DNA of 64,000 nt from Marinomonas lutimaris (GTDB lineage Bacteria; Pseudomonadota; Gammaproteobacteria; Pseudomonadales; Marinomonadaceae): positions 1 to 64,000 of the forward strand of contig NZ_JAHLLW010000013.1 of assembly GCF_019426345.1 (NCBI RefSeq), written 5' to 3'. Of this stretch, positions 40,751 to 57,693 are shown one piece after another (positions within the stretch are counted from its first letter, which is position 1; every line of letters begins with the position of its first letter). Both the position numbers and the translations under genes were made by a program. The notes beneath the pieces are model-generated. The model had not been told where the DNA came from. It ran no database searches and saw only the letters and a program-made list of their open reading frames with translations.

Positions 40751-42367
40751 ATGCTGGATCGCATCAATGATATAAAAATTCGCTACAAGCTATGGGCTAT
40801 TATCGGACTCATGTCCATGGGGACCACAGCGCTTATTCTCGTTTCTCTTACGTCTTTATTTAATAGTCATGTGGATGCACGAAAAGATCGAACTCAAGAT
40901 ATTTTAGATATCGTAAACACCACGCTGTCACCTATCTACAAAAAACAAACATCTGGCGAACTTAGCGCAGATAAAGCAAAACAAGAAGCTATCACGCTTC
41001 TATCTGAGTTCAGTTACGGAGACCAACAAAGCTTATGGATAGTAAATAAAAATAGCCGAACCCTGCTCAATGCCCCAGCAAACTACAAAAGCAGCACTCT
41101 ACCGCCATCTCTAACCGATGAACTAAACAAAACGAAACAAGAGACATCAAAGAAGAATTATCAAACCATCGTATTTGAATATCAAGGAAACGACGGTACC
41201 GCTCACAAAATGATCGCCAGTGCGTCTACATTTACACCTTGGAACATAACTATTATTGCCACAGCATCTATGGATGAGGTGATTAACTTCTTCTTAAGAG
41301 CTTTGATAGATTACGCCATCGTTGTGGGCCTACTTACGGTATTAGTTGGTGGTACGGCTTTGTATATTATTCACTTGGTTACTAGCCGTGTGACTTCACT
41401 CTGTAAAACAATGACATCAGTTCAGCACTCTGGTGATCTTACGCAACGGGTTGAGTTTTCAGGACAGGACGAAATGGGCGAAATGGCTCGTGCTTTCAAT
41501 AGCATGATGAATGACTTTCAGTCCATCGTGCGAAATGTCAGTCACTCAAGTGAGACTTTAGATAGCATAGTTAGCCAAACGAATAATTCGACGACTAAAA
41601 CAGCACAAGGCGTCGCCAGACAACTATCTAACACAAGCAAAGCGACAGAGCTCATGCAAGATGTCATGAACTCAGTTGAAGACACGCTTGCCATTGCTGA
41701 GCAAGCCAATAACAAAACACAAGAACTTGGCCAGCATTCCAAACAAGGCCTTGGAGTCATGAGTAAAGCCAATCAAGATATCCAGCAACTATCCGTTGAA
41801 GTGGGCGATGCCGCCAAACAGATTCAACAATTACGCGAAGACGTTAGTCATATTAATGATCGACTAGGCATCATTGCAGAAGTCGCAGATCAAACTAACC
41901 TACTTGCGCTTAACGCCGCAATCGAAGCCGCTCGTGCTGGTGAACAAGGTCGAGGCTTTGCTGTTGTTGCAGACGAAGTTCGCCAACTTGCACAGCGCTC
42001 TCAACTCGCCGCAACGGAGATTGGTGGTTTGATCGATCAATTAACCCAGCAAACACTTACAACAGTTGAAGTAATGGAATCGGCTCGTAACACAGCCAAT
42101 CAAGGCGCAGAGCAGACCTCCCAAGCAGGTCAGGCATTTACTCAAATAGCCAATGGCGTTCTGTCCATTTCCAAATTAAATAGCAGTATTAGCCAGGCAG
42201 CAGATCGCCAACACGAATCGTCTCAGACCGTTCACCAAACGTTAGAGAGCATCGCAAATGTTTGTGAAGAAACCAAACACAACTCCACCGACATCCAAAC
42301 ATCAGTTAACAATTTACAAGAGTGCGCTAGCCAATTGCGTCAACTAGTCCATCAGTTCAGTACCTAA
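40751..42367 (+). CDS. Methyl-accepting chemotaxis protein with periplasmic Cache domain
   Basis: A 538-residue chemoreceptor. TM1 lies at about 14-34 and a periplasmic single-Cache domain at ~35-180 ([19 protein letters not shown] and [20 protein letters not shown] are sCache_2-like). TM2 is at ~185-210, then a HAMP domain (~210-262) and the cytoplasmic signalling helices with the hairpin tip [20 protein letters not shown] near 375-395. sCache_2 receptors often bind small carboxylates, but the ligand is not predictable here. GGAGG before the ATG. Confidence 0.93.
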
Positions 42368-42408: not shown

Positions 42409-42722
42409 GAGCTGCCCTTTTTGAATTATCCTGATGCATTTTTTATCTATAAAAATTCACATCCCTCTATTAACATCCATCTTAAATAGGGGCTAATTTA
42501 TATGGAGCCCAAGCGATACTTCACGCTCTCATTTTGTGCATAACTGTATGATTTTATGTAAAACACGACATTTTCAAAAATTAAGTGAAAAAGAAGCCTT
42601 TAACTGCTTGGTGAGTCACATTATGTTTGGGTATAGTGGTTTTAAACTTAATTCGCACTATAGTTTGTATAGTTTGAACTAAGTAACTGATCTTAACAGC
42701 AGCGTTTTATAAAGGATCGAAT
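42409..42722. other. Upstream region of the phosphorylase-kinase-like/glg operon
   Basis: 314 bases without a gene. It holds three copies of TATAGT (42632, 42659, 42668) in the last 100 bases, any of which could be a -10 hexamer, but none has a convincing -35 at 16-18 bases. Otherwise I see nothing. Confidence 0.35.
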
Positions 42723-45700
42723 ATGGCGTCTGATACGCAAGATAAGCTAGATTCTCTTTATCAACATATCCAAGCGGTTATCTTATCCCGCCAGCATCCC
42801 GTAACAGGGCTTTTCCCTGCTAGCACCAGTATTAATAATCACGGTAACTACACAGATGCTTGGGTGCGAGATAATGTTTATAGTATCCAAGCCGTATGGG
42901 CCTTACATCTAGCCTATAAGCGTGCTTCTAATCCGCAAAAGCGCGCTAATGAACTCGAGTTCGCCTGTATAAAAATGATGCGTGGCTTATTATTCGCCAT
43001 GATGCGTCAATCCCATAAAGTAGAATCCTTCAAGCATAGCCTAGACCCAAAAGACGCACTACACGCCAAATACGATACGAAAACCGGTTTAGAAGCGGTT
43101 GCCGATGATGCTTGGGGACATTTGCAAATTGATGCCACCAGCTTTTATTTATTGATGTTGGCACAAATGACCAAAGCTGGCAGCAAGCTGATCTTTTCTC
43201 GTGACGAATTCAACTTTATCCAAAACCTTATTTATTATATTTCTCGTACTTATCGCACGCCCGATTATGGCATTTGGGAGCGAGGCAATAAGGTAAATAA
43301 TGGCAAAGCCGAAATAAACGCCAGTTCCGTTGGCATGGCGAAAGCCGCTATGGAAGCCATGGATGGACTAAATTTATTTGGTGAAGAAGGTCCGGAATGG
43401 GCGGTAGTCCATTCCTTTGCAGACGCCGTTGCTCGCGCAGGTTCTGTATTGCAATCCTTGTTACCGAAAGAGTCTCGCTCAAAAGAAGTCGACAGCGCTA
43501 TTCTTAGTATCATTGGCTTCCCAGCCTTTGCGGTAAACGATGAAAAACTAACTCGCCGCACACGCAAAGAAATCATTAGCAAGTTGGGCGGCGAATACGG
43601 CTGTAAACGCTTTTTATTAGACGGTCACCAATCCGAGCTTGAAGACCAAAGCCGAATCTATTACGAGTACGATGAGTTAATTAATTTCGAGCACATTGAA
43701 TCCGAATGGCCGCTATTTTTTACTTATCTTTATATTGACCGCTTGTTTGCCCGAGATTGGGAAAGTGCTAACTTTTATCGCCATAAACTAGAGTCACTTA
43801 TGGTTGAAAAAGATGGTCAAATGCTACTGCCAGAACTTTATTATGTGCCGCAAGAAAACATCCTAGCGGAGAAAGAAAAACCAGGATCTCAAAAACGTGT
43901 TCCCAATGACAACCTCCCTTTGGTTTGGGCACAAAGTTTGTTCCTGGTCGGTAAAATGCTCGATGAAGAGCTAATCACCACAGATGATCTCGATCCACTT
44001 GGTTTACATCGTGTTCAGCACAGGCCAAACAAAGTCACCACGTCTATGGTTATCTTGGCGCAAAATGACAAGGTTAAACAAAAATTATTGAATGCTGGTT
44101 GTCTTTGCCAAACCCTAGAAGACATTGCGCCACTTAAAGCCATCAGTGCCGATCAGCTAGTTGAAACCTACCGTCATCTTGGTGCTTCCGAGACATTAGG
44201 GCTGACAGGTCGCCCTAATCGTGCATTGAACAGCTTGGCAACCTCTCAGGCATTTAGCATCAATGAAGAAAGCTACTTATGCTTGTCTTGGATTCAAAAC
44301 GAAGACAAAGACTACCGTAAGATTGACCCCTCCCTGTTCCAAGCTCATATACGTAACGAACTGAAAACCATTGCTGAACATTGGTATTATCAAGCTAATG
44401 CGGTTTTCAGCATTCTCATCGATGAAGCAATGAGTGAAATGAAAGGCAGTGACGAATTATTTGAATTTATTCGCTTACTGCAAAAACGTGAGCACGAAGA
44501 ATTCCGTGTAATTCCTCAATCAGCTAAGAATGCCTTTAAATCAGGAAATCGTCGCGCCATTATAATTAGCTCTCTTGATCATAAGCAGTTAGAAACCAAG
44601 CTGCCGCTTCATGATACGCCTTGGCCTTTAGCAGACAAACCAAAATCCTATGATGCTGCTAGCATTAAAACAGCTGAAACCGATACTCTGCTTGCTCGCT
44701 TAGTCGATAAGCCGAGTTTAGACGAAGCAGTCGATTGCTTAATGGAGCTCGGTGGTCGACGAGCACTGATGAGCACCATACCAAATTCAACACCTGCCAT
44801 TACCGCGTATAAAGTATTGAATAGCGTTTATCTTCAGGCGTTATTAGCGGAAAACTGGCGCCCTGCTCGGCAGCTGTATTCTCTGATTCTGAAACCTTCG
44901 ACGGATTTAGCAACCTACATTGCCGACATTACCGTTCGCCAGCGTTTATTAGTGATTGGTGAAACACCAGAAACAGAAGTCGATATCAGTTCGCCATTGC
45001 ACCAAGATGCTATTTTGGACATGCTGCGCAGTGTTTCTTCATCACCAATTGGTTTGGTCATTTGTCATGAATTAATTGCCATTGCAGGTACGCTAATTAA
45101 AGTCCATCCAGAGTTTTTCTCTGGGGTGCGTACTATTCGTATTCATAACTTAGCCATGCTTTGTGCTCGACAATTTGACCCAGAAGATGATGCGCCTGTT
45201 TTCGACACATTGTCTAAGGTCTCACCAAGTGAGCTTTACGAAGCCCTCACGCAAGCATTACAACAGAAGCACGATGAATTTGCTCATGTGGCCAATAACA
45301 TGCGCTACCACAATAGTAGTGATGCGCAAAGTAAGATGAAAGATGTCGACTGGTTTGACTGGCGTTCTGAGCAGGGTATGATCACTAAGCTACCAGAATC
45401 TATGTTGCTGCAGCTCTGGGGAAGTTTAAGTCATGCCAACACCATTGTATTTGGTGATTTACAAAGTAATACTGCGTTGGATTGCAAACGTGCGCTCAGC
45501 TCAATGACACCGGGTGAAGACACCTTTGCACTACTGATTGAAACCTTAACATCAGACATTCATCCTAGCTGGTATAAGAGTCTTATTTTCGAAGGCTTGT
45601 ATGCCTTCATACAGTTTTGCCAACAACATAAAAACTGCAAGTTTGAACAAGAAATCAACTTGCCGGTGTTAGTTTCCCAAGCGGCTTTGGATCACGCCAA

Positions 45701-45848
45701 GCAACATCAAGCAGAACACCCAGAAGACAGCTGGGCAGAAGCTGCATTGGATGAATTTGCACAAATAACACCTAATAAAGTAAACCAATATTTGCGTTGG
45801 GCAGTGAGCAAACTTCACAGTCATCAGCACCAACACTCATCGAGTTAA
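42723..45848 (+). CDS. Full-length homologue of phosphorylase kinase alpha/beta subunits (GH15-like)
   Basis: A 1041-residue cytoplasmic protein that follows animal PHKA/PHKB along its length. Residues ~15-420 form a GH15-like (alpha/alpha)6 domain: HPVTGLFPAS, DAWVRDNVYSIQAVWAL, DDAWGHLQIDATSFYLLMLA, DYGIWERGNK (Glu186) and LLPELYYVP (Glu371) at the two acidic positions of glucoamylases. The C-terminal third keeps the PHK-specific block with MTPGE at 928-932. No Ser/Thr kinase or signal peptide is present. It lies 26 bases upstream of glgB and shares an operon with glgX, which points to binding, trimming or sensing of glycogen. Eukaryotic-type phosphorylation of phosphorylase is not expected. 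AAAGGATC precedes the ATG. Confidence 0.88.
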   Translation: MASDTQDKLDSLYQHIQAVILSRQHPVTGLFPASTSINNHGNYTDAWVRDNVYSIQAVWALHLAYKRASNPQKRANELEFACIKMMRGLLFAMMRQSHKVESFKHSLDPKDALHAKYDTKTGLEAVADDAWGHLQIDATSFYLLMLAQMTKAGSKLIFSRDEFNFIQNLIYYISRTYRTPDYGIWERGNKVNNGKAEINASSVGMAKAAMEAMDGLNLFGEEGPEWAVVHSFADAVARAGSVLQSLLPKESRSKEVDSAILSIIGFPAFAVNDEKLTRRTRKEIISKLGGEYGCKRFLLDGHQSELEDQSRIYYEYDELINFEHIESEWPLFFTYLYIDRLFARDWESANFYRHKLESLMVEKDGQMLLPELYYVPQENILAEKEKPGSQKRVPNDNLPLVWAQSLFLVGKMLDEELITTDDLDPLGLHRVQHRPNKVTTSMVILAQNDKVKQKLLNAGCLCQTLEDIAPLKAISADQLVETYRHLGASETLGLTGRPNRALNSLATSQAFSINEESYLCLSWIQNEDKDYRKIDPSLFQAHIRNELKTIAEHWYYQANAVFSILIDEAMSEMKGSDELFEFIRLLQKREHEEFRVIPQSAKNAFKSGNRRAIIISSLDHKQLETKLPLHDTPWPLADKPKSYDAASIKTAETDTLLARLVDKPSLDEAVDCLMELGGRRALMSTIPNSTPAITAYKVLNSVYLQALLAENWRPARQLYSLILKPSTDLATYIADITVRQRLLVIGETPETEVDISSPLHQDAILDMLRSVSSSPIGLVICHELIAIAGTLIKVHPEFFSGVRTIRIHNLAMLCARQFDPEDDAPVFDTLSKVSPSELYEALTQALQQKHDEFAHVANNMRYHNSSDAQSKMKDVDWFDWRSEQGMITKLPESMLLQLWGSLSHANTIVFGDLQSNTALDCKRALSSMTPGEDTFALLIETLTSDIHPSWYKSLIFEGLYAFIQFCQQHKNCKFEQEINLPVLVSQAALDHAKQHQAEHPEDSWAEAALDEFAQITPNKVNQYLRWAVSKLHSHQHQHSSS

Positions 45849-45874
45849 CACGCTCACTCTTGCTGGAGAAGTGA

Positions 45875-48070
45875 ATGGATTTAATAAAAAACGCCCTAAT
45901 TGACGATGTGCTACAAGCACGTTGCTCAGACCCTTTTGGCTGTTTAGGACTACAAGCATCCCCTTCTAAAAAAGGTTTGTCGTTACTGGTTTGGCAACCT
46001 GAAGCGATATCTATTCGTGTATTAGCCATAGATTCAGACAAAGAGCTCGCCAAAATGAGCGAGACTGATGACAAAGGTTTGTTTTACGCAAAATGGCCAA
46101 AAGAAACTACGCGCTTTCATTATCGCCTTGAAATCACTTATAAAGACAAAAGCACTTATACCCTAGTCGACCCATATCAATTTCCTAATACGACCTTTGT
46201 CGATCCAGAGCATCATCAAGCGAATCAATACAAAAGCCAAGGGGCGATTCGTGCTGGAGCCAAGGTAAACGATAAACTGACCATTCAAGGCACACGCTTT
46301 GCTGTGTATGCGCCAGCAGCGCGATCTGTGTCTGTGGTTGGCGACTTTAATGCTTGGGATGGCCGCATTCACCCAATGTCGAGCAATGGCGATGGCATTT
46401 GGCGATTGTTTATTCCAGACGTTAATCACGGTGCCCGTTATAAGTTCGAGATTCGCGCAAAATCAGGTGAAATCCTTCCTCATCGCAGCGACCCATATGC
46501 ACAGCGTATTGAGCAATACCCGTCTTTTGCCAGCGTAACCTGCTTTGATAATAAGCACGCTTGGCAGGACGACGCTTGGGTTAAACGCCCTATCGAAGAT
46601 ATCTACGAAAAACCCATGAGCATTTATGAATTACACATTGGTTCATGGCGTCGTAAGGATGACAATCAACCGCTGACGTATCTTGAGATCAAAGACCAGC
46701 TGGTTCCTTATATTCAAGAAATGGGCTACACACACGTCGAATTATTGCCGATTACTGAATACCCATTCGATGGATCTTGGGGCTACCAGCCTGTCGGCTT
46801 GTATGCTGTAACATCTCGATTTGGTACACCAGAAGACTTCAAAGCCCTTGTTGATGCACTTCATCAAGCCAATATCGGCGTAATTATGGATTGGGTTCCA
46901 GCGCATTTCCCAGCCGACAGCCATGGTTTAGCGAACTTCGATGGTTCCAAACAATACGAATATCCAGACCCTAAAAAAGGCTGGCATCCAGAGTGGAATT
47001 CGTTGATCTACGATTTTGGCAAAGAACATGTGGTGAATTACCTAATCAGTAACGCGGTTTATTGGTTAGAAGAATTCCACATTGATGGTTTACGCGTTGA
47101 TGCCGTGGCCTCTATGTTGTATTTGGATTACTCCCGCGAAGACGGCGAATGGATTCCCAACAAGGACGGCGGCAATCATAACTACGAAGCCATAGATTTT
47201 TTACGTCGCTTAAACGAAACCGTGTACTTGAATCATCCTCGCTGTTTTACCGTAGCCGAAGAATCTACCGCCTTTCCTGGTGTGTCTAAGCCAACTTATA
47301 TGAATGGTTTGGGCTTTGGCTTCAAATGGAATATGGGCTGGATGAATGACTCACTGGCTTACATTAAAAAAGACCCAATTTATCGCCAGCACCATCAAGG
47401 CGAACTTAGCTTTAGTATGGTTTACGCCTTTGACGAGCAATTTGTTCTGCCGATTTCTCACGATGAAGTAGTACATGGCAAAGGCTCGATGATCACTAAA
47501 ATGCCCGGAGATGCTTGGCAGAAGTTTGCTAATTTACGCGCTTTTTCGGCTTACATGTATTTCCATCCTGGCAAGAAGCTCAACTTCATGGGTAACGAGT
47601 TTGCGCAAGGCCAAGAATGGAGTCATGAGCGCTCTTTGGATTGGCATTTGTTAAACACCGGTTTCCATAAAGCTCAGCAAACGCTATCAAAAGACCTAAA
47701 TCATCTTTATCAAAACGAAGCGAGTTTGCAGTTTGACCATTCTTATCTAGGCTTTGAATGGATCAGCTACGACGACAGCGCCAACAGTATTTTGGCCTTT
47801 GCCCGTAAAGCCAAAGACAGCGATGAACATGCGGTCGCGGTGATTAACTTTACGCCGACACCACATGGCAACTATCGTATTGGCGTGCCTAAATCAGGTC
47901 GTTATCAAGTCATCATGGATACGGATGAGGCAAGCTACACTGGCAGTGGCTTCGTCAAAAGCAAACAATACGATACACAGACGATTGTCAGTCATGGCCG
48001 TGACCAAAGTATTGAACTGCAAGTACCACCACTGGCTGGCATTTTATTAAAATGGTTAGGCGAGTCTTAA
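45875..48070 (+). CDS. glgB: 1,4-alpha-glucan branching enzyme
   Basis: GH13 enzyme that creates alpha-1,6 branches in glycogen. The 731 residues hold an N-terminal beta domain, a CBM48 domain (FAVYAPAARSVSVVGDFNAWDG near 145-166), then the catalytic barrel with the nucleophile in GLRVDAVASMLYLDYSR, the acid/base in TVAEESTAFPG and the HDEVVHGKGSM loop. Length matches E. coli GlgB (728). GGAGAAG stands just before the ATG. It is the middle gene between the phosphorylase-kinase-like gene and glgX, with no glgC, glgA or glgP nearby. Confidence 0.96.
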   Translation: MDLIKNALIDDVLQARCSDPFGCLGLQASPSKKGLSLLVWQPEAISIRVLAIDSDKELAKMSETDDKGLFYAKWPKETTRFHYRLEITYKDKSTYTLVDPYQFPNTTFVDPEHHQANQYKSQGAIRAGAKVNDKLTIQGTRFAVYAPAARSVSVVGDFNAWDGRIHPMSSNGDGIWRLFIPDVNHGARYKFEIRAKSGEILPHRSDPYAQRIEQYPSFASVTCFDNKHAWQDDAWVKRPIEDIYEKPMSIYELHIGSWRRKDDNQPLTYLEIKDQLVPYIQEMGYTHVELLPITEYPFDGSWGYQPVGLYAVTSRFGTPEDFKALVDALHQANIGVIMDWVPAHFPADSHGLANFDGSKQYEYPDPKKGWHPEWNSLIYDFGKEHVVNYLISNAVYWLEEFHIDGLRVDAVASMLYLDYSREDGEWIPNKDGGNHNYEAIDFLRRLNETVYLNHPRCFTVAEESTAFPGVSKPTYMNGLGFGFKWNMGWMNDSLAYIKKDPIYRQHHQGELSFSMVYAFDEQFVLPISHDEVVHGKGSMITKMPGDAWQKFANLRAFSAYMYFHPGKKLNFMGNEFAQGQEWSHERSLDWHLLNTGFHKAQQTLSKDLNHLYQNEASLQFDHSYLGFEWISYDDSANSILAFARKAKDSDEHAVAVINFTPTPHGNYRIGVPKSGRYQVIMDTDEASYTGSGFVKSKQYDTQTIVSHGRDQSIELQVPPLAGILLKWLGES

Positions 48071-48132
48071 TCGCTAGCACTAACAACATTTTGCAATAAC
48101 GACAGCAACATAAACAGCATCTAGAGGTATTA

Positions 48133-50175
48133 ATGAACCAAGCACACCAGATTTCCAATGGCTCTCTTTTTCCTCTAGGTGCTACAGTGACCGAAAATGG
48201 TGTCAATTTCGCAGTGGTTGCTGAAAACGCGACTCAGCTGTATTTGTGTTTATTTGATGACGAAGGCAATGAACAAGAACCGCTGCCCTTTATTAATAAA
48301 ACAAAGGGCATTTGGTACATGGAAGTACTTGGTTTAAAAGAAGGTCAGCATTATGGACTGCGAGCCAAAGGCGAATTCAAACCAGAACTTCAGCTCGTCT
48401 ACAATGAGCGAAAACTGCTTATTGACCCTTATGCGAAAGAGTTAAGCGCTAAACTGGTTTGGCACGAAGATCAAGCAGCAATAACAAAAGAAGGTAAAGC
48501 GCACCCAACCGATTCTGCCTATTGCGTCCCTAAATCTATTGTACGTACCATTAAGGTAAAATCAGATCGCCCTGCAAGAACGAAAATCACACCGTCAAGT
48601 CGTGCTTTATACGAGCTGCATGTTAAAGGCTTTAGCAAAAACCTATCGATTGAAAGCGAGCTTCAAGGCACTTATCTTGGTGTCATTTCGTCCGCTGGCA
48701 TCGAACATTTAAAAAGCCTTAATATCACTACGATTCAGTTAATGCCTTGCTTTAGCTTTATGACAGAGCGTCATTTACAGCAATTAGAACTCAATAATTA
48801 TTGGGGCTACAACCCCATTAGCTTTTTTGCCGTCGAACCTTCATATGCCATAAAAGACGCCATCGTTGAGTTTCAACAAATGATAGATGGATTGCGCCAA
48901 GCAGGTTTTGAGGTGATTTTAGACGTGGTGTATAACCACACAGCTGAAAGTGAATTAGATCAATCCAGCGTGTGTTATCGCGGCTTAGACAATGCGCGCT
49001 ACTATCGCCACCAAGATGGGCAGTATTTGAATTACACGGGGTGTGGTAACTGTATCGATACCTATAGCCCCACCAGCATTCGCCTTATCTGTGACAGTAT
49101 GCGTTATTGGGTAGAAGTCATGGGGGTCGATGGTTTCCGTTTTGACTTAGGTGTGGATCTTGGTCGCACCGATCATAACTTCGTAGCAAAAGCCCCCTTG
49201 TTACAGGCCATTCTTCAAGATCCTGTTTTAAGCGAAACGTGCCTTGTAATGGAACCTTGGGACATTGGTCCAAACGGTTATCAAGTCGGACAATTTCCCA
49301 GAGGCTTTCTGGAATGTAACGACCAATACCGAGACACGGTTCGTCGTTTCTGGCGTGGTGATGATGGCTTAGTGCCAGAGTTTGCGACACGTCTTATGGG
49401 ATCAAGAGACTACTTTCATAAAGGCCAAAAAAGCGCCTTAAACTCAGTGAATTACATCACCTACCACGATGGCTATACCATGAAGGATTTGGTGTCATAT
49501 CACCAACGCCATAACCTCGCCAACATGGAAGAAAACCGTGACGGCCATGGTGAAAATATTAGTCAAAACTTTGGCGCAGAAGGTGAAACAGACGACAAAG
49601 ATATTCAAGCAAAGCGCTTAAATCAGCAGCTTTGTTTTATGGCTACGCTGCTATTAAGCCAGGGCACGCCACACATTTTAGGTGGTGACGAACTGTCTCA
49701 TAGCCAGCAAGGTAACAACAACGCCTATTGCCAAGATAACGACATTACGTGGCAAACTTGGCAAGACATAGACACTGAAACAAGCCATGCGAGAAAAGCA
49801 ATTCAAGACACCATAGCAACACTCATGGCGTTACGAAAAACCTATCCTATTTTGGCAGAGATTCGCCTAGAAGATGATCCGCTTTATCAACATACGTCGT
49901 CGGATAAAATCCATTGGCTCAACGAACAAAGTGAAGCAATGACGATAGAAAACTGGGCCGATGACAGTCGACATTTCATTGCGTTAACGCTAACGCCAGC
50001 CGATCTTTCTAGCAGTTTTTGGATAGTATTCTATAGTGACGATGTGCCTCTTAGTATTCCGTTACCTACAGAAAACGACAAGATAGAAACGCTTTACCAA
50101 ACGCCTGGATTATCCATTACAGAAGACAGCACACTCCATTGCGCTTATCGTGGTGTATTTGTTGGTAAATTTTAA
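48133..50175 (+). CDS. glgX: Glycogen debranching enzyme GlgX (isoamylase-type)
   Basis: Hydrolyses alpha-1,6 linkages, usually of short branches left by glycogen phosphorylase. The 680-residue protein has an N-terminal CBM48-like domain (LGATVTENGVNFAVVAENA) and the GlgX/TreX catalytic motifs: DVVYNHTAE, GFRFDLGVDLGR (nucleophile Asp), VMEPWDIGPNGYQVGQFP (acid Glu), NYITYHDGYTMKDLVSY and HGGDE-like LGGDELSHSQQGNNNAYCQD. AGAGGT precedes the ATG, 62 bases after glgB. It ends 5 bases from the convergent ABC exporter gene without a visible terminator. Confidence 0.95.
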   Translation: MNQAHQISNGSLFPLGATVTENGVNFAVVAENATQLYLCLFDDEGNEQEPLPFINKTKGIWYMEVLGLKEGQHYGLRAKGEFKPELQLVYNERKLLIDPYAKELSAKLVWHEDQAAITKEGKAHPTDSAYCVPKSIVRTIKVKSDRPARTKITPSSRALYELHVKGFSKNLSIESELQGTYLGVISSAGIEHLKSLNITTIQLMPCFSFMTERHLQQLELNNYWGYNPISFFAVEPSYAIKDAIVEFQQMIDGLRQAGFEVILDVVYNHTAESELDQSSVCYRGLDNARYYRHQDGQYLNYTGCGNCIDTYSPTSIRLICDSMRYWVEVMGVDGFRFDLGVDLGRTDHNFVAKAPLLQAILQDPVLSETCLVMEPWDIGPNGYQVGQFPRGFLECNDQYRDTVRRFWRGDDGLVPEFATRLMGSRDYFHKGQKSALNSVNYITYHDGYTMKDLVSYHQRHNLANMEENRDGHGENISQNFGAEGETDDKDIQAKRLNQQLCFMATLLLSQGTPHILGGDELSHSQQGNNNAYCQDNDITWQTWQDIDTETSHARKAIQDTIATLMALRKTYPILAEIRLEDDPLYQHTSSDKIHWLNEQSEAMTIENWADDSRHFIALTLTPADLSSSFWIVFYSDDVPLSIPLPTENDKIETLYQTPGLSITEDSTLHCAYRGVFVGKF

Positions 50176-54859: not shown

Positions 54860-56113
54860 GTGACAGACACATTTACGACGAATGCAAATAACGAAACAGT
54901 CGCAGAGGATATAAGTAAAAAGTCCGTATTGATCATTGAAGACATGAATGAAATGCGCCTAATGCTAAGATCTATGATGCTCTCATTAGGCTATACAAAC
55001 ATAGAAGTTGAAGCCTCAGGTCAAAGTGCCCTCAAACGTATAGCGGCGAAACGTTTTGATCTTATTCTTTCCGATTACAACCTTGGTGGTCGTATTAACG
55101 GCCAACAGGTTCTAGAAACCGCGCGAAAAAACAACATTCTCGCACCCTCTACTATTTTCATCATGATTACCGCAGATACAGGTTATGACAGCGTCGTCAG
55201 TGCAATAGAGCACCGACCTGATAGCTATATGGTAAAACCCTTTACTCCTTCGACATTACACCGCCGTTTACGCCGTATTAAACTGCAAAAAAGTATCTTT
55301 TCAGAAGTTGATGAATACCGAGAAAAAATGGATTTTGCGATGATGGAAAGCAAAGCCAAAGCTATCATGGCCAAACATCCCCAATACAGCAGTTTATGCC
55401 TAAAGGTTATTGGAGAGTCACTGCTATCAAGGCAAGAGTATAAAACAGCTAAAATTCATTATATGAGAGTGATCAAACACAATAAGGAGCTTTCTTGGGC
55501 CCACTTCGGCGTAGCGCAATGTGACTTAAGCTTGAAACAACCTCTATCTGCTGTGGCTAGCTTAGAAAAAGCCATCAGCATTAGTCGTCACTTTCTACCG
55601 GCTTATGATGACCTTGCTAGTGCATATGAAAAATTAGGCGACCACAAAGCGGCTCAAAAAACGATGATAGCCAGCTTAGAAATCACGCCTAGATCTCTAG
55701 CAAGAACAAAAAGACTTGGAAAAATAAGCGTTAGACTAAAAGATTGGAAAATAGCAGAGCAAGCTTATTCACGGGTCATTCGTTTAACCAAAGATACCCA
55801 ACACGAAAAAATAGAACACTATTATGATCATCTTAAATGTCTGATTGCGATACAAGAAGGTGAAGATCACCCACCACAAACAGCAGAAAAACTTAGACGC
55901 TCTTTAACAAGATTACGCATGTTAGGAAAAGACGATCCTATCGTTGTGTCAAACTCCTTTCGTGTAGAGGTTCAGCAACACCTTCATAGAGAACGTCGGG
56001 ATGACGCGATTAAATCTTGGAAACAGTGGAAGCAATTAATACTAGCAGGAAAAGCATCATCTATATCACGAGAACAAGAACTCACCTTAAAAAAACGATT
56101 AGGCTTATCTTAA
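54860..56113 (+). CDS. Response regulator with TPR-like output (copy 1)
   Basis: A 417-residue protein with an intact receiver (about 22-140: acidic E27/D28, phospho-acceptor Asp72 in LILSDYNLGG, Thr104 in IMITADT, Lys126 in MVKPF). A long helical region (150-340) reads as tetratricopeptide-type repeats (AKIHYMRVIKHNKELSWAHF, AVASLEKAISISRHFLPAYD, AEQAYSRVIRL), followed by a basic C-terminal segment. No DNA-binding, GGDEF or other catalytic output is seen, so signalling is probably by protein contact. GTG start after GAGGAAAG. It is paralogous to the next gene; no kinase is adjacent. Confidence 0.9.
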   Translation: MTDTFTTNANNETVAEDISKKSVLIIEDMNEMRLMLRSMMLSLGYTNIEVEASGQSALKRIAAKRFDLILSDYNLGGRINGQQVLETARKNNILAPSTIFIMITADTGYDSVVSAIEHRPDSYMVKPFTPSTLHRRLRRIKLQKSIFSEVDEYREKMDFAMMESKAKAIMAKHPQYSSLCLKVIGESLLSRQEYKTAKIHYMRVIKHNKELSWAHFGVAQCDLSLKQPLSAVASLEKAISISRHFLPAYDDLASAYEKLGDHKAAQKTMIASLEITPRSLARTKRLGKISVRLKDWKIAEQAYSRVIRLTKDTQHEKIEHYYDHLKCLIAIQEGEDHPPQTAEKLRRSLTRLRMLGKDDPIVVSNSFRVEVQQHLHRERRDDAIKSWKQWKQLILAGKASSISREQELTLKKRLGLS

Positions 56114-56427: not shown

Positions 56428-57693
56428 TTGACAGATGTAATCGCCCTTGGCGTTGAAAACACAAACGATATCCATCAAGAACTTGTCGACATATCAAAAA
56501 AGCGTGTTTTGATCATCGAAGATATCGGTGAAATGCGACTGATGCTGAAATCTTTAATGACGTCGATGGGGTATTCCAATATAGATGTAGAACCCTCTGG
56601 ACAATCTGCTATCAAGCGAATTCTAGAAAGGCCTTATGATGTTGTACTATCCGATTATAACCTTGGAGGCAGCATAGACGGCCAGCAAATTTTAGAAACG
56701 TCCCGCAAGAACTACTCTCAAGACCATTCCACTATTTTTATCATGATTACTGCCGACACAGCATATGAAAGTGTTGTCAGCGTGCTGGAATATCAACCAG
56801 ATAGCTATCTTGTTAAACCCTTTCCGCCCGCTGCTTTTTTCCGGCGCTTTGAGCGAGTCCAAAAACAAAAGAAAACCTTTGAAGGGATTAACACGGCTAG
56901 AAAAGAAAATGATTTTGAAAAAATGGAAGCGCAAGCTAAAGCAGTCATGGTGCAATATCCTCATTTTGCTAGTCAATGTTTAAAAATCATTGGCGAATCA
57001 CTCTATGCTAGAGGTCGATACAAAGACGCCAAAAGCCACTACATGCTTATCATTCAAAAAAGCAAAAACCTAGCTTGGGCACATTACGGCATTGCATTAT
57101 GTGAACTCAAACTCGGCACAGTCGCTGCCGCCATAAAAAAACTAGAGCATACTATTGGCTTAAGTCGTCATTTTTTATCAGCATATGATTTACTTGCCGA
57201 CGCACACGAAGATTTAGGCAATCTAGAAGATGCTCAAGCAATCATGAGTAGTGTTTTAGAAGTCTCTCCACGCTCTACAGAACGCGCTCTTCGACTTGCT
57301 CAAATCAGTATGCAATTAAATGATTGGCCAACGGCCGAACAGGCTTACTCAAAAGTCATTCGACTGACTCGTGAAACAAGTCATGAAAAAGTCGAATACT
57401 ACTATGAGTATTTAAAATGCCTAACCAACATGATGACAAACAACTCAGATAATTCAAAGCTGGCTGATAAATTTAAGCGCACGCTTATCCGCCTACGAAC
57501 CTTTGGAAAAGCCAACCCTGCAGCGGTCTCTAACTCTTTCCGTATAGAGATTCAGCAATATCTAGCTCGAGACCATGTCGGAGAAGCCATTAAATCTTGG
57601 AAACAATGGAATCGTCTGATCCAATCAGGACAAGCAACGCCTCTTTCCGACGCTCAAAAACACACACTTAAAAAACGCCTCGGCTTGCTATAA
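56428..57693 (+). CDS. Response regulator with TPR-like output (copy 2)
   Basis: A 421-residue paralogue of the preceding protein with the same architecture: receiver with Asp76 (VVLSDYNLGG), Thr108 and Lys130, TPR-like helices (AKSHYMLIIQKSKNLAWAHYG, AIKKLEHTIGLSRHFLSAYD, AEQAYSKVIRLTRET) and a basic end (SDAQKHTLKKRLGLL). By eye more than half of the aligned residues match copy 1, so this is a tandem duplication with divergence. TTG start; AGG lies about ten bases upstream. The separate terminator and promoter region suggest independent expression. Confidence 0.9.
   Translation: MTDVIALGVENTNDIHQELVDISKKRVLIIEDIGEMRLMLKSLMTSMGYSNIDVEPSGQSAIKRILERPYDVVLSDYNLGGSIDGQQILETSRKNYSQDHSTIFIMITADTAYESVVSVLEYQPDSYLVKPFPPAAFFRRFERVQKQKKTFEGINTARKENDFEKMEAQAKAVMVQYPHFASQCLKIIGESLYARGRYKDAKSHYMLIIQKSKNLAWAHYGIALCELKLGTVAAAIKKLEHTIGLSRHFLSAYDLLADAHEDLGNLEDAQAIMSSVLEVSPRSTERALRLAQISMQLNDWPTAEQAYSKVIRLTRETSHEKVEYYYEYLKCLTNMMTNNSDNSKLADKFKRTLIRLRTFGKANPAAVSNSFRIEIQQYLARDHVGEAIKSWKQWNRLIQSGQATPLSDAQKHTLKKRLGLL

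Follow-up and report, generated by a model that had tools for sequence, protein, structure and literature searches.

Phosphorylase kinase (PHK) had a central place in the work that first revealed regulation by phosphorylation. Its two largest subunits, alpha and beta, have a glucoamylase-like domain whose role is called unresolved in the portion of the account drawn on here (PMC10978961). The same portion places Glu185 and Glu371 of human alpha in an apparently intact active site. It reports no detectable glucoamylase activity of the alpha-gamma-delta complex or the holoenzyme on maltose, isomaltose or glycogen, and it describes a C-terminal farnesylation (CaaX) motif for muscle alpha and beta (PMC10978961). 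A gene encoding a bacterial homologue of these subunits, termed phk-like, is found in a 64,000-nucleotide stretch of Marinomonas lutimaris DNA (NCBI RefSeq assembly GCF_019426345.1, contig NZ_JAHLLW010000013.1, positions 1 to 64,000 of the forward strand), here called the window. It spans 42723..45848 on the plus strand and encodes 1041 amino acids from its ATG. The open reading frame, Pfam matches, a phmmer search of PDB and a phylogenetic tree all identify the product as a full-length PHK alpha/beta homologue. We propose, with a probability of about 0.72, that it is an active cytoplasmic, inverting exo-alpha-glucosidase of the GH15 type that trims the cell's own glycogen to free glucose.

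Two other systems are close to the one proposed. The classical bacterial route of glycogen breakdown, GlgP-GlgX-MalQ-MalP, acts on the same polymer, but the product predicted here is glucose and not glucose 1-phosphate. Catabolic GH15 glucoamylases of archaea and other organisms are likewise hydrolytic and convert alpha-glucan to glucose. For archaea, a catabolic GH15 enzyme with a mutant glycogen phenotype is mentioned in a 2024 review of prokaryotic alpha-glucan enzymes; the part of the review searched does not mention PHK-like kinds and contains none of the terms 'phosphorylase kinase', 'PHKA' and 'Marinomonas' (PMC11046441). No function described for a bacterial PHK alpha/beta homologue was found in the open literature, a search that leaves most subscription papers outside it.

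Homology to phosphorylase kinase alpha and beta

The domain order of the window protein is that of PHK alpha and beta (PF00723 with PF19292; KEGG K07190), and the homology runs along the whole length. Pfam matches, both over cut-off, are to the GH15 domain PF00723 at residues 8-533 (E 2.2e-68) and to the PHK C-terminal domain KPBB_C, PF19292, at residues 826-1037 (45198..45833, plus strand; E 8.7e-28). Among PDB chains, phmmer found human PHKA1 at E 1e-157 and human PHKB at E 7.2e-139, the PHKB alignment forming one continuous stretch over residues 6-993 of the window protein. Apart from PHK, the search returned a single chain at E 1 or better, a DNA primase (E 0.76). The C-terminal ~400 residues of 15 bacterial proteins were made into a profile, which matched PHKB at 4.2e-58 and PHKA at 2.7e-56 in PDB. 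Because the next match of this profile reaches only E 0.01, the C-terminal similarity to PHK is not due to chance. Judged by sequence and domain order, membership in the PHK alpha/beta family is real. The initial annotation of this DNA had described the protein as a GH15-like half joined to the C-terminal third of PHKA/PHKB, and on this Pfam, the PDB search and the C-terminal profile agree. The DDAWGHLQIDATSFYLLMLA block, Glu186 (WER), Glu371 (LPELY) and the MTPGE block to which it had pointed are all located as claimed; MTPGE occupies residues 928-932 (45504-45518, plus strand), inside the PHK C-terminal domain.

Identity of the window protein over residues 6-590 is 43% with human alpha and 38% with human beta; between the two human subunits it is 42%. 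The bacterial protein closest to human alpha in the GH15 part, with 59% identity, is encoded at locus L113 (L and G numbers designate loci and genomes). There are also differences from the animal subunits. Relative to human alpha, the window protein is missing ~110 residues in the stretch 588-765 and a ~50-residue insertion within 964-1063. Unlike muscle alpha and beta, all 26 bacterial homologues compared lack a CaaX-type C-terminus in the last eight residues. Bacterial holders of the gene have a single copy, with one PF19292 match per genome, and the bacterial proteins have no known gamma kinase partner.

A tree was built from the 26 PHK-like proteins of bacteria, the two human subunits and 25 ordinary members of GH15. 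Its GH15 rows split from the bacterial PHK-like and human rows with support 100/100. The same split is found in a tree without long rows. Eukaryotes were represented by the human sequences only, cyanobacterial members were not in the tree, and the 25 GH15 rows are the best-scoring GH15 loci retained and not a random draw. The branch between the two sides is long (4.42 changes per column as drawn with midpoint rooting), and the tree tool warned of long branches meeting there, which is a caveat on the split. A profile of the GH15-like domain, D1 (residues 1-435; 42723..44027, plus strand), matched no GH15 chain in PDB up to E 10. Like GH15 (glucoamylase, glucodextranase, trehalase and others), the PHK-like proteins conserve the catalytic acid, the base and both motifs, Y...W.RD and GIWE, but the long branch and ~600 extra C-terminal residues set them apart from that family. 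The window protein therefore does not fall inside ordinary GH15, in agreement with the initial annotation, and its C-terminal third is homologous to PHK.

Pocket residues and predicted activity

Conservation is concentrated in D1. The window protein displays 52-63% identity to 22 homologues from outside Marinomonas in residues 1-435 and 21-29% in residues 641-1041, and residues 1-435 hold 115 of the 132 columns that do not vary among the 26 bacterial proteins. Eight residues identical to those of GH15 are found in all 26: Tyr43, Trp47, Arg49, Asp50, Trp185, Glu186, Glu326 and Glu371. The first four make up the subsite -1 set, likewise present in 26/26, and align with the GH15 substrate-pocket motif Y...W.RD (42849..42872, plus strand). 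The predicted general acid, Glu186 in GIWER (43278..43280, plus strand), is invariant in the bacterial proteins, human alpha, human beta and GH15. Glu371 in LPELY (43833..43835, plus strand), the predicted general base, is present in all 26 bacterial proteins and is Lys in human beta. The counterparts of the pair in human alpha are Glu185 and Glu371. Asn397 (43911..43913, plus strand) is common to GH15 and the 26 bacterial proteins; human alpha has Lys and beta has Gly at this position. We take the pocket residues of the window protein to correspond to Tyr48, Trp52, Arg54, Asp55, Glu179 and Glu400 of Aspergillus glucoamylase. In that enzyme Tyr48 touches the catalytic base.

The animal subunits have lost positions that the bacterial proteins keep. 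GH15 has 87 near-invariant columns, 24 of which are kept by at least 25 of the 26 bacterial PHK-like proteins. On the GH15 side, 20 of the 25 rows were in frame unfiltered and show the motifs; the other five were re-framed by demanding W.RD- and GIWE-type motifs, and the motif count of 25/25 is therefore partly by construction. Human alpha keeps 22 of the 24 positions, having Gln for Tyr43 and Lys for Asn397. In human beta 16 are kept; the eight lost include the base (Lys), and Tyr43 is Asp. When the 114 D1 columns invariant in bacteria are considered, alpha keeps 101 (13 differ) and beta keeps 81. The alpha segment ahead of the W.RD motif is shorter by several residues, so that the exact alpha counterpart of Tyr43 depends on the alignment. 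Loss of the tyrosine may be one reason why human alpha is silent, and the tyrosine-bearing bacterial proteins would then be active.

According to the proposal, the PHK-like enzyme would take glucose off the non-reducing ends of the outer chains of glycogen by an inverting GH15 mechanism, in which Glu186 would be the acid and Glu371 the base. GlgX would strip the branch stubs left after chain shortening, and glucokinase would phosphorylate the released glucose, which would enter the Entner-Doudoroff route. In the host, the PHK-like enzyme would fill the role that glycogen phosphorylase and MalQ have in most bacteria. The C-terminal half probably holds the oligomer and glycogen contacts.

The conservation pattern also bears on a different function. 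The protein might be a scaffold or regulator that binds glycogen without catalysis and keeps GlgB and GlgX at the granule, in the way that PHK alpha and beta hold a kinase in animals. Human alpha and beta are themselves not enzymes although alpha keeps both Glu residues (PMC10978961, in the portion drawn on here). The C-terminal scaffold half is present in the window protein, and the gene adjoins glgB and glgX in Marinomonas. However, the pocket is invariant while the scaffold half drifts, which would not be expected of a pure scaffold. The commonest partner elsewhere is glucokinase and not GlgB/GlgX (11 versus 2 of 22 loci), and a scaffold would leave the host without an exo-acting long-chain enzyme among the families searched. 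We regard a scaffold function as unlikely.

Gene neighbourhoods and glycogen metabolism

The phk-like gene lies directly before genes for the glycogen branching and debranching enzymes, as the initial annotation had stated. The 1,4-alpha-glucan branching enzyme gene glgB (45875..48070, plus strand; 731 amino acids; NF003811, 943 bits) begins 26 bases after the phk-like stop, and the glycogen debranching enzyme gene glgX (48133..50175, plus strand; 680 amino acids; TIGR02100, 745 bits) follows after a gap of 62 bases; both products are over the NCBIfam cut-off. The order phk-glgB-glgX is found in 27 of 27 Marinomonas loci and is not a property of a single strain; the nearest named loci are those of Marinomonas, with up to 98% protein identity. 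Beyond the genus, the linkage to glgB and glgX is limited to 2 of 22 loci. In two draft genomes (L016 and L037) phk, glgB or glgX is split into several frames, likely by assembly frameshifts.

PF19292 is matched in 46 of 48 Marinomonas genomes, although in G011 only in a 498-amino-acid frame, the gene being in pieces. Overall, 49 of 143 relatives (Marinomonas included) have it. In wider samples it is matched in 8 of 398 Pseudomonadota and 14 of 369 Gammaproteobacteria (host counted); among 200 genomes of the Campylobacterota, the phylum of a Sulfuricurvum metagenome-assembled genome that carries locus L040, 2 have it. Among 14 control genomes, only Synechococcus elongatus has a match. Holders outside Marinomonas number 22, and the loci of all 22 were extracted and examined.

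At 11 of these 22 loci a glucokinase gene is beside the phk-like gene or in an operon with it. In eight, the phk-like gene is followed by glucokinase on the same strand (L040, L088, L107, L112, L113, L114, L116 and L117, of which L114, L116 and L117 come from one genus). The stop and start codons overlap as ATGA in L088, L107 and L112, the L112 glucokinase gene being cut by the contig end. The overlap is longer in L116 and L117, and is a single base in L114 when the start codon closest to the homology is taken; gaps of 24 and 51 bases separate the genes in L040 and L113, respectively. The phk-like gene is behind glk-eda in L050 and L051, with malQ behind it in L050, and glk is adjacent and divergent in L119. 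Matches to the glucokinase model TIGR00749 are over the NCBIfam cut-off in L040, L050, L051, L088, L107, L113 and L119 and slightly under it in L114, L116 and L117 (212-216 versus 225 bits); L112 is a fragment. For a genome of some 3,000 genes, one of them for glucokinase, we estimate that the two genes would be neighbours by chance with a frequency on the order of 1/1000. The two loci with adjoining glgB-glgX clusters are L054, which also has malQ, and L118, where the cluster is divergent and includes glgC and where GlgB and GlgX are over the NCBIfam cut-off.

These neighbours would also suit an active GH15 enzyme with another alpha-glucoside as substrate, such as imported maltodextrin, isomaltose or trehalose, the placement beside glgB and glgX being secondary. 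The GH15 family includes activities other than glucoamylase. Several holders link the phk-like gene to glucokinase only, which suits any glucose-releasing enzyme; L050 and L054 have malQ as a partner, and the window protein has a weak NCBIfam match to the archaeal trehalase TreH1 (E 3.5e-8, 32.5 bits versus a cut-off of 820). Such a substrate appears rather improbable, as the phk-like gene and glgA are absent from the same two of 48 Marinomonas genomes. These are G002 and G043 (the latter 77% complete), the only two without a phk-like gene and also without a real glgA.

The search for pathway genes supports glycogen as the substrate of a GH15-type hydrolase. In the host, glgC and glgA adjoin on contig 34, and contig 2 carries glucokinase together with zwf and eda. 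With GlgA, GlgB, GlgC, GlgX and glucokinase present, glycogen can be made and debranched and its glucose used. The host has no match to phosphorylase (PF00343) or MalQ (GH77, PF02446), the two standard chain-shorteners; other glucan-cutting families, such as GH31, GH57, GH65, GH97 and GH133, were outside the search. The active-enzyme interpretation is strengthened because the host is without a detectable phosphorylase or MalQ and the gene is often coupled to glucokinase elsewhere. Across the genus, phosphorylase is matched in 17 of 48 genomes and unmatched in 31, the host among the latter. MalQ has no match in any of the 48 (8 of the 14 controls have one), glucokinase is found in 47, and glgA is present at full score in 45 and split in G011. 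For a whole genus this glycogen pathway is unusual, with glgA over cut-off in 45 genomes but MalQ unmatched in every genome and phosphorylase unmatched in 31 of 48.

The same data bear on the animal function. That the protein might act as a regulator of phosphorylase, as in animals, by way of an unseen bacterial kinase, finds some support in kinase-like genes near the phk-like gene (Pkinase with AAA_16 in L107; DUF4032, Kdo-kinase-like, in L050 and L051). Such neighbours were noticed in 3 of the 22 other loci, where not every neighbour was scanned. Around the window operon, a scan of eight neighbouring genes, to which the kinase search in the host was confined, revealed no kinase. The host and 28 other gene-bearing Marinomonas genomes have no phosphorylase match. 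Because the host has none, a phosphorylase kinase function is set aside and largely refuted for it; we consider this function highly improbable.

The kinase-like genes may be noted in their own right. The L107 gene (13014-16310) encodes a 1099-amino-acid protein with a Hanks-type kinase (Pkinase) and an AAA_16 domain, and is divergent to the phk-glk operon. The DUF4032 proteins encoded near the phk-like gene in two genera (L050, 4183-5418; L051, 6527-7807) have a weak Kdo/WaaP-kinase-like part and could be small-molecule or protein kinases of glucan metabolism.

Several observations weigh against hydrolysis of glycogen by the PHK-like protein. Since human alpha keeps both Glu residues and is inactive, the Glu pair alone proves nothing. 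The second Glu of the GH15 EE pair, found in all 25 GH15 rows, is Leu372 in the 26 bacterial proteins, an EL pair. An AlphaFold model of the window protein, built with 23 relatives in the alignment, is poor (mean predicted local distance difference test score, pLDDT, 65; predicted template modelling score, pTM, 0.42). Within residues 1-435, around half of the ten-residue blocks have a pLDDT below 60, and the catalytic stretches 178-201 and 286-327 are below 50. Foldseek with this low-confidence model gave 304 matches up to E 10, of which the 8 below E 0.001 were all PHK chains, with template modelling (TM) scores of ~0.3; a glucoamylase ranked 30, at E 0.47. Nine of the 22 loci outside Marinomonas are without linkage to glucokinase or glycogen genes (L052, L053, L055, L056, L108, L109, L110, L111 and L115, the last close to a contig end). 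Phosphorylase coexists with the phk-like gene in 17 Marinomonas genomes. Among 8 further holders that were tested, 5 have a match, a weak one in one case, and 3 have none. Because the two coexist in many holders, replacement of phosphorylase is not general. Finally, the host has seven GH13 (PF00128) matches, and GH13 enzymes other than GlgB and GlgX, which should be two of the seven, could cut short glucans. Four of the others were extracted. Two of these proteins, with NF051899 (named BglA beta-galactosidase) as best NCBIfam model, slightly under cut-off, are presumably alpha-glucosidase-like. A third is sucrose-phosphorylase-like, under the NCBIfam cut-off. Another, of 640 amino acids (L091, 4281-6200; G000 contig 1, 479126-479881), has no NCBIfam model above cut-off; we take it, judged by length, to be possibly an amylosucrase, which would feed glucan synthesis from sucrose.

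The initial annotation had suggested that the protein trims alpha-glucan and may be an active enzyme. With an intact Glu pair and the gene linkage, trimming is the likeliest interpretation, and catalysis itself is predicted from sequence. No evidence was found for the sensing of alpha-glucan that had also been suggested, and the earlier interpretation is partly supported overall.

Other features of the window may be mentioned briefly. A Shine-Dalgarno-like AAAGGA, read directly, is ahead of the phk-like start codon (42711..42716, plus strand), and, judged by eye, similar stretches are also found ahead of glgB and glgX. A promoter scan was uninformative (16 found, 16.1 expected by chance) and a terminator scan was near chance level (11 found, 7.9 expected, standard deviation 2.6); neither was used. 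A methyl-accepting chemotaxis protein gene (MCPsignal, HAMP, sCache_2; 40751-42367) is 355 bases upstream of the phk-like gene. It is kept in 25 of 27 Marinomonas loci and may be unrelated to the phk-like gene. Tandem genes encoding response-regulator and TPR proteins (54860-56110 and 56428-57690) have similar starts and look duplicated; L022 and L032 have a single such gene between the same flanking genes. A phage or plasmid origin of the phk-like gene was rejected, as tblastn gave zero matches across 72,556 plasmid records and none was confirmed in one viral-contig scan.

Evolution and significance

Human alpha and beta are sisters in the tree (support 100/97). In the first tree they fall among the bacterial rows, but constraining the 26 bacterial rows together costs just 1.07 log units, and this alternative is not rejected (p-value of the approximately unbiased test, p-AU, 0.457). 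With five long rows removed, the bacteria are on one side with support 42/0. Descent of the human subunits from within bacteria, that is, the direction of transfer, is not decided by these trees. The role suggested in the initial annotation as perhaps ancestral stays a conjecture, the animal gene being either inherited or acquired from bacteria.

A tentative evolutionary scenario, which we put forward as possible, is that the bacterial enzyme does the job of phosphorylase and is often produced along with glucokinase. On the way to animals the gene would have been duplicated and both copies would have lost pocket residues, alpha the tyrosine and beta the base and more. The dead, glycogen-gripping enzyme would then have turned into a controller of the phosphorolytic enzyme that took its place.

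Bacterial homologues carry automatic labels that name them 'phosphorylase kinase'. The portion drawn on of a microbiome paper lists K07190, 'phosphorylase kinase beta', among kinases of Ralstonia in a discussion of apoptotic signalling (PMC12794691); this label may rest on GH15/PHK-like bacterial proteins and may mislead.

For Marinomonas, the findings suggest a hydrolytic route of glycogen breakdown consisting of GlgX, the PHK-like enzyme and glucokinase. For the family, the bacterial proteins represent a tractable, predictedly active version of the silent PHK glucoamylase domain, by which an old question becomes testable. The two positions lost in human alpha and kept in GH15 and in all 26 bacterial proteins are singled out among the 13 D1 positions that differ. 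The bacterial PHK-like proteins may show what the regulatory subunits of PHK did before they became regulators.

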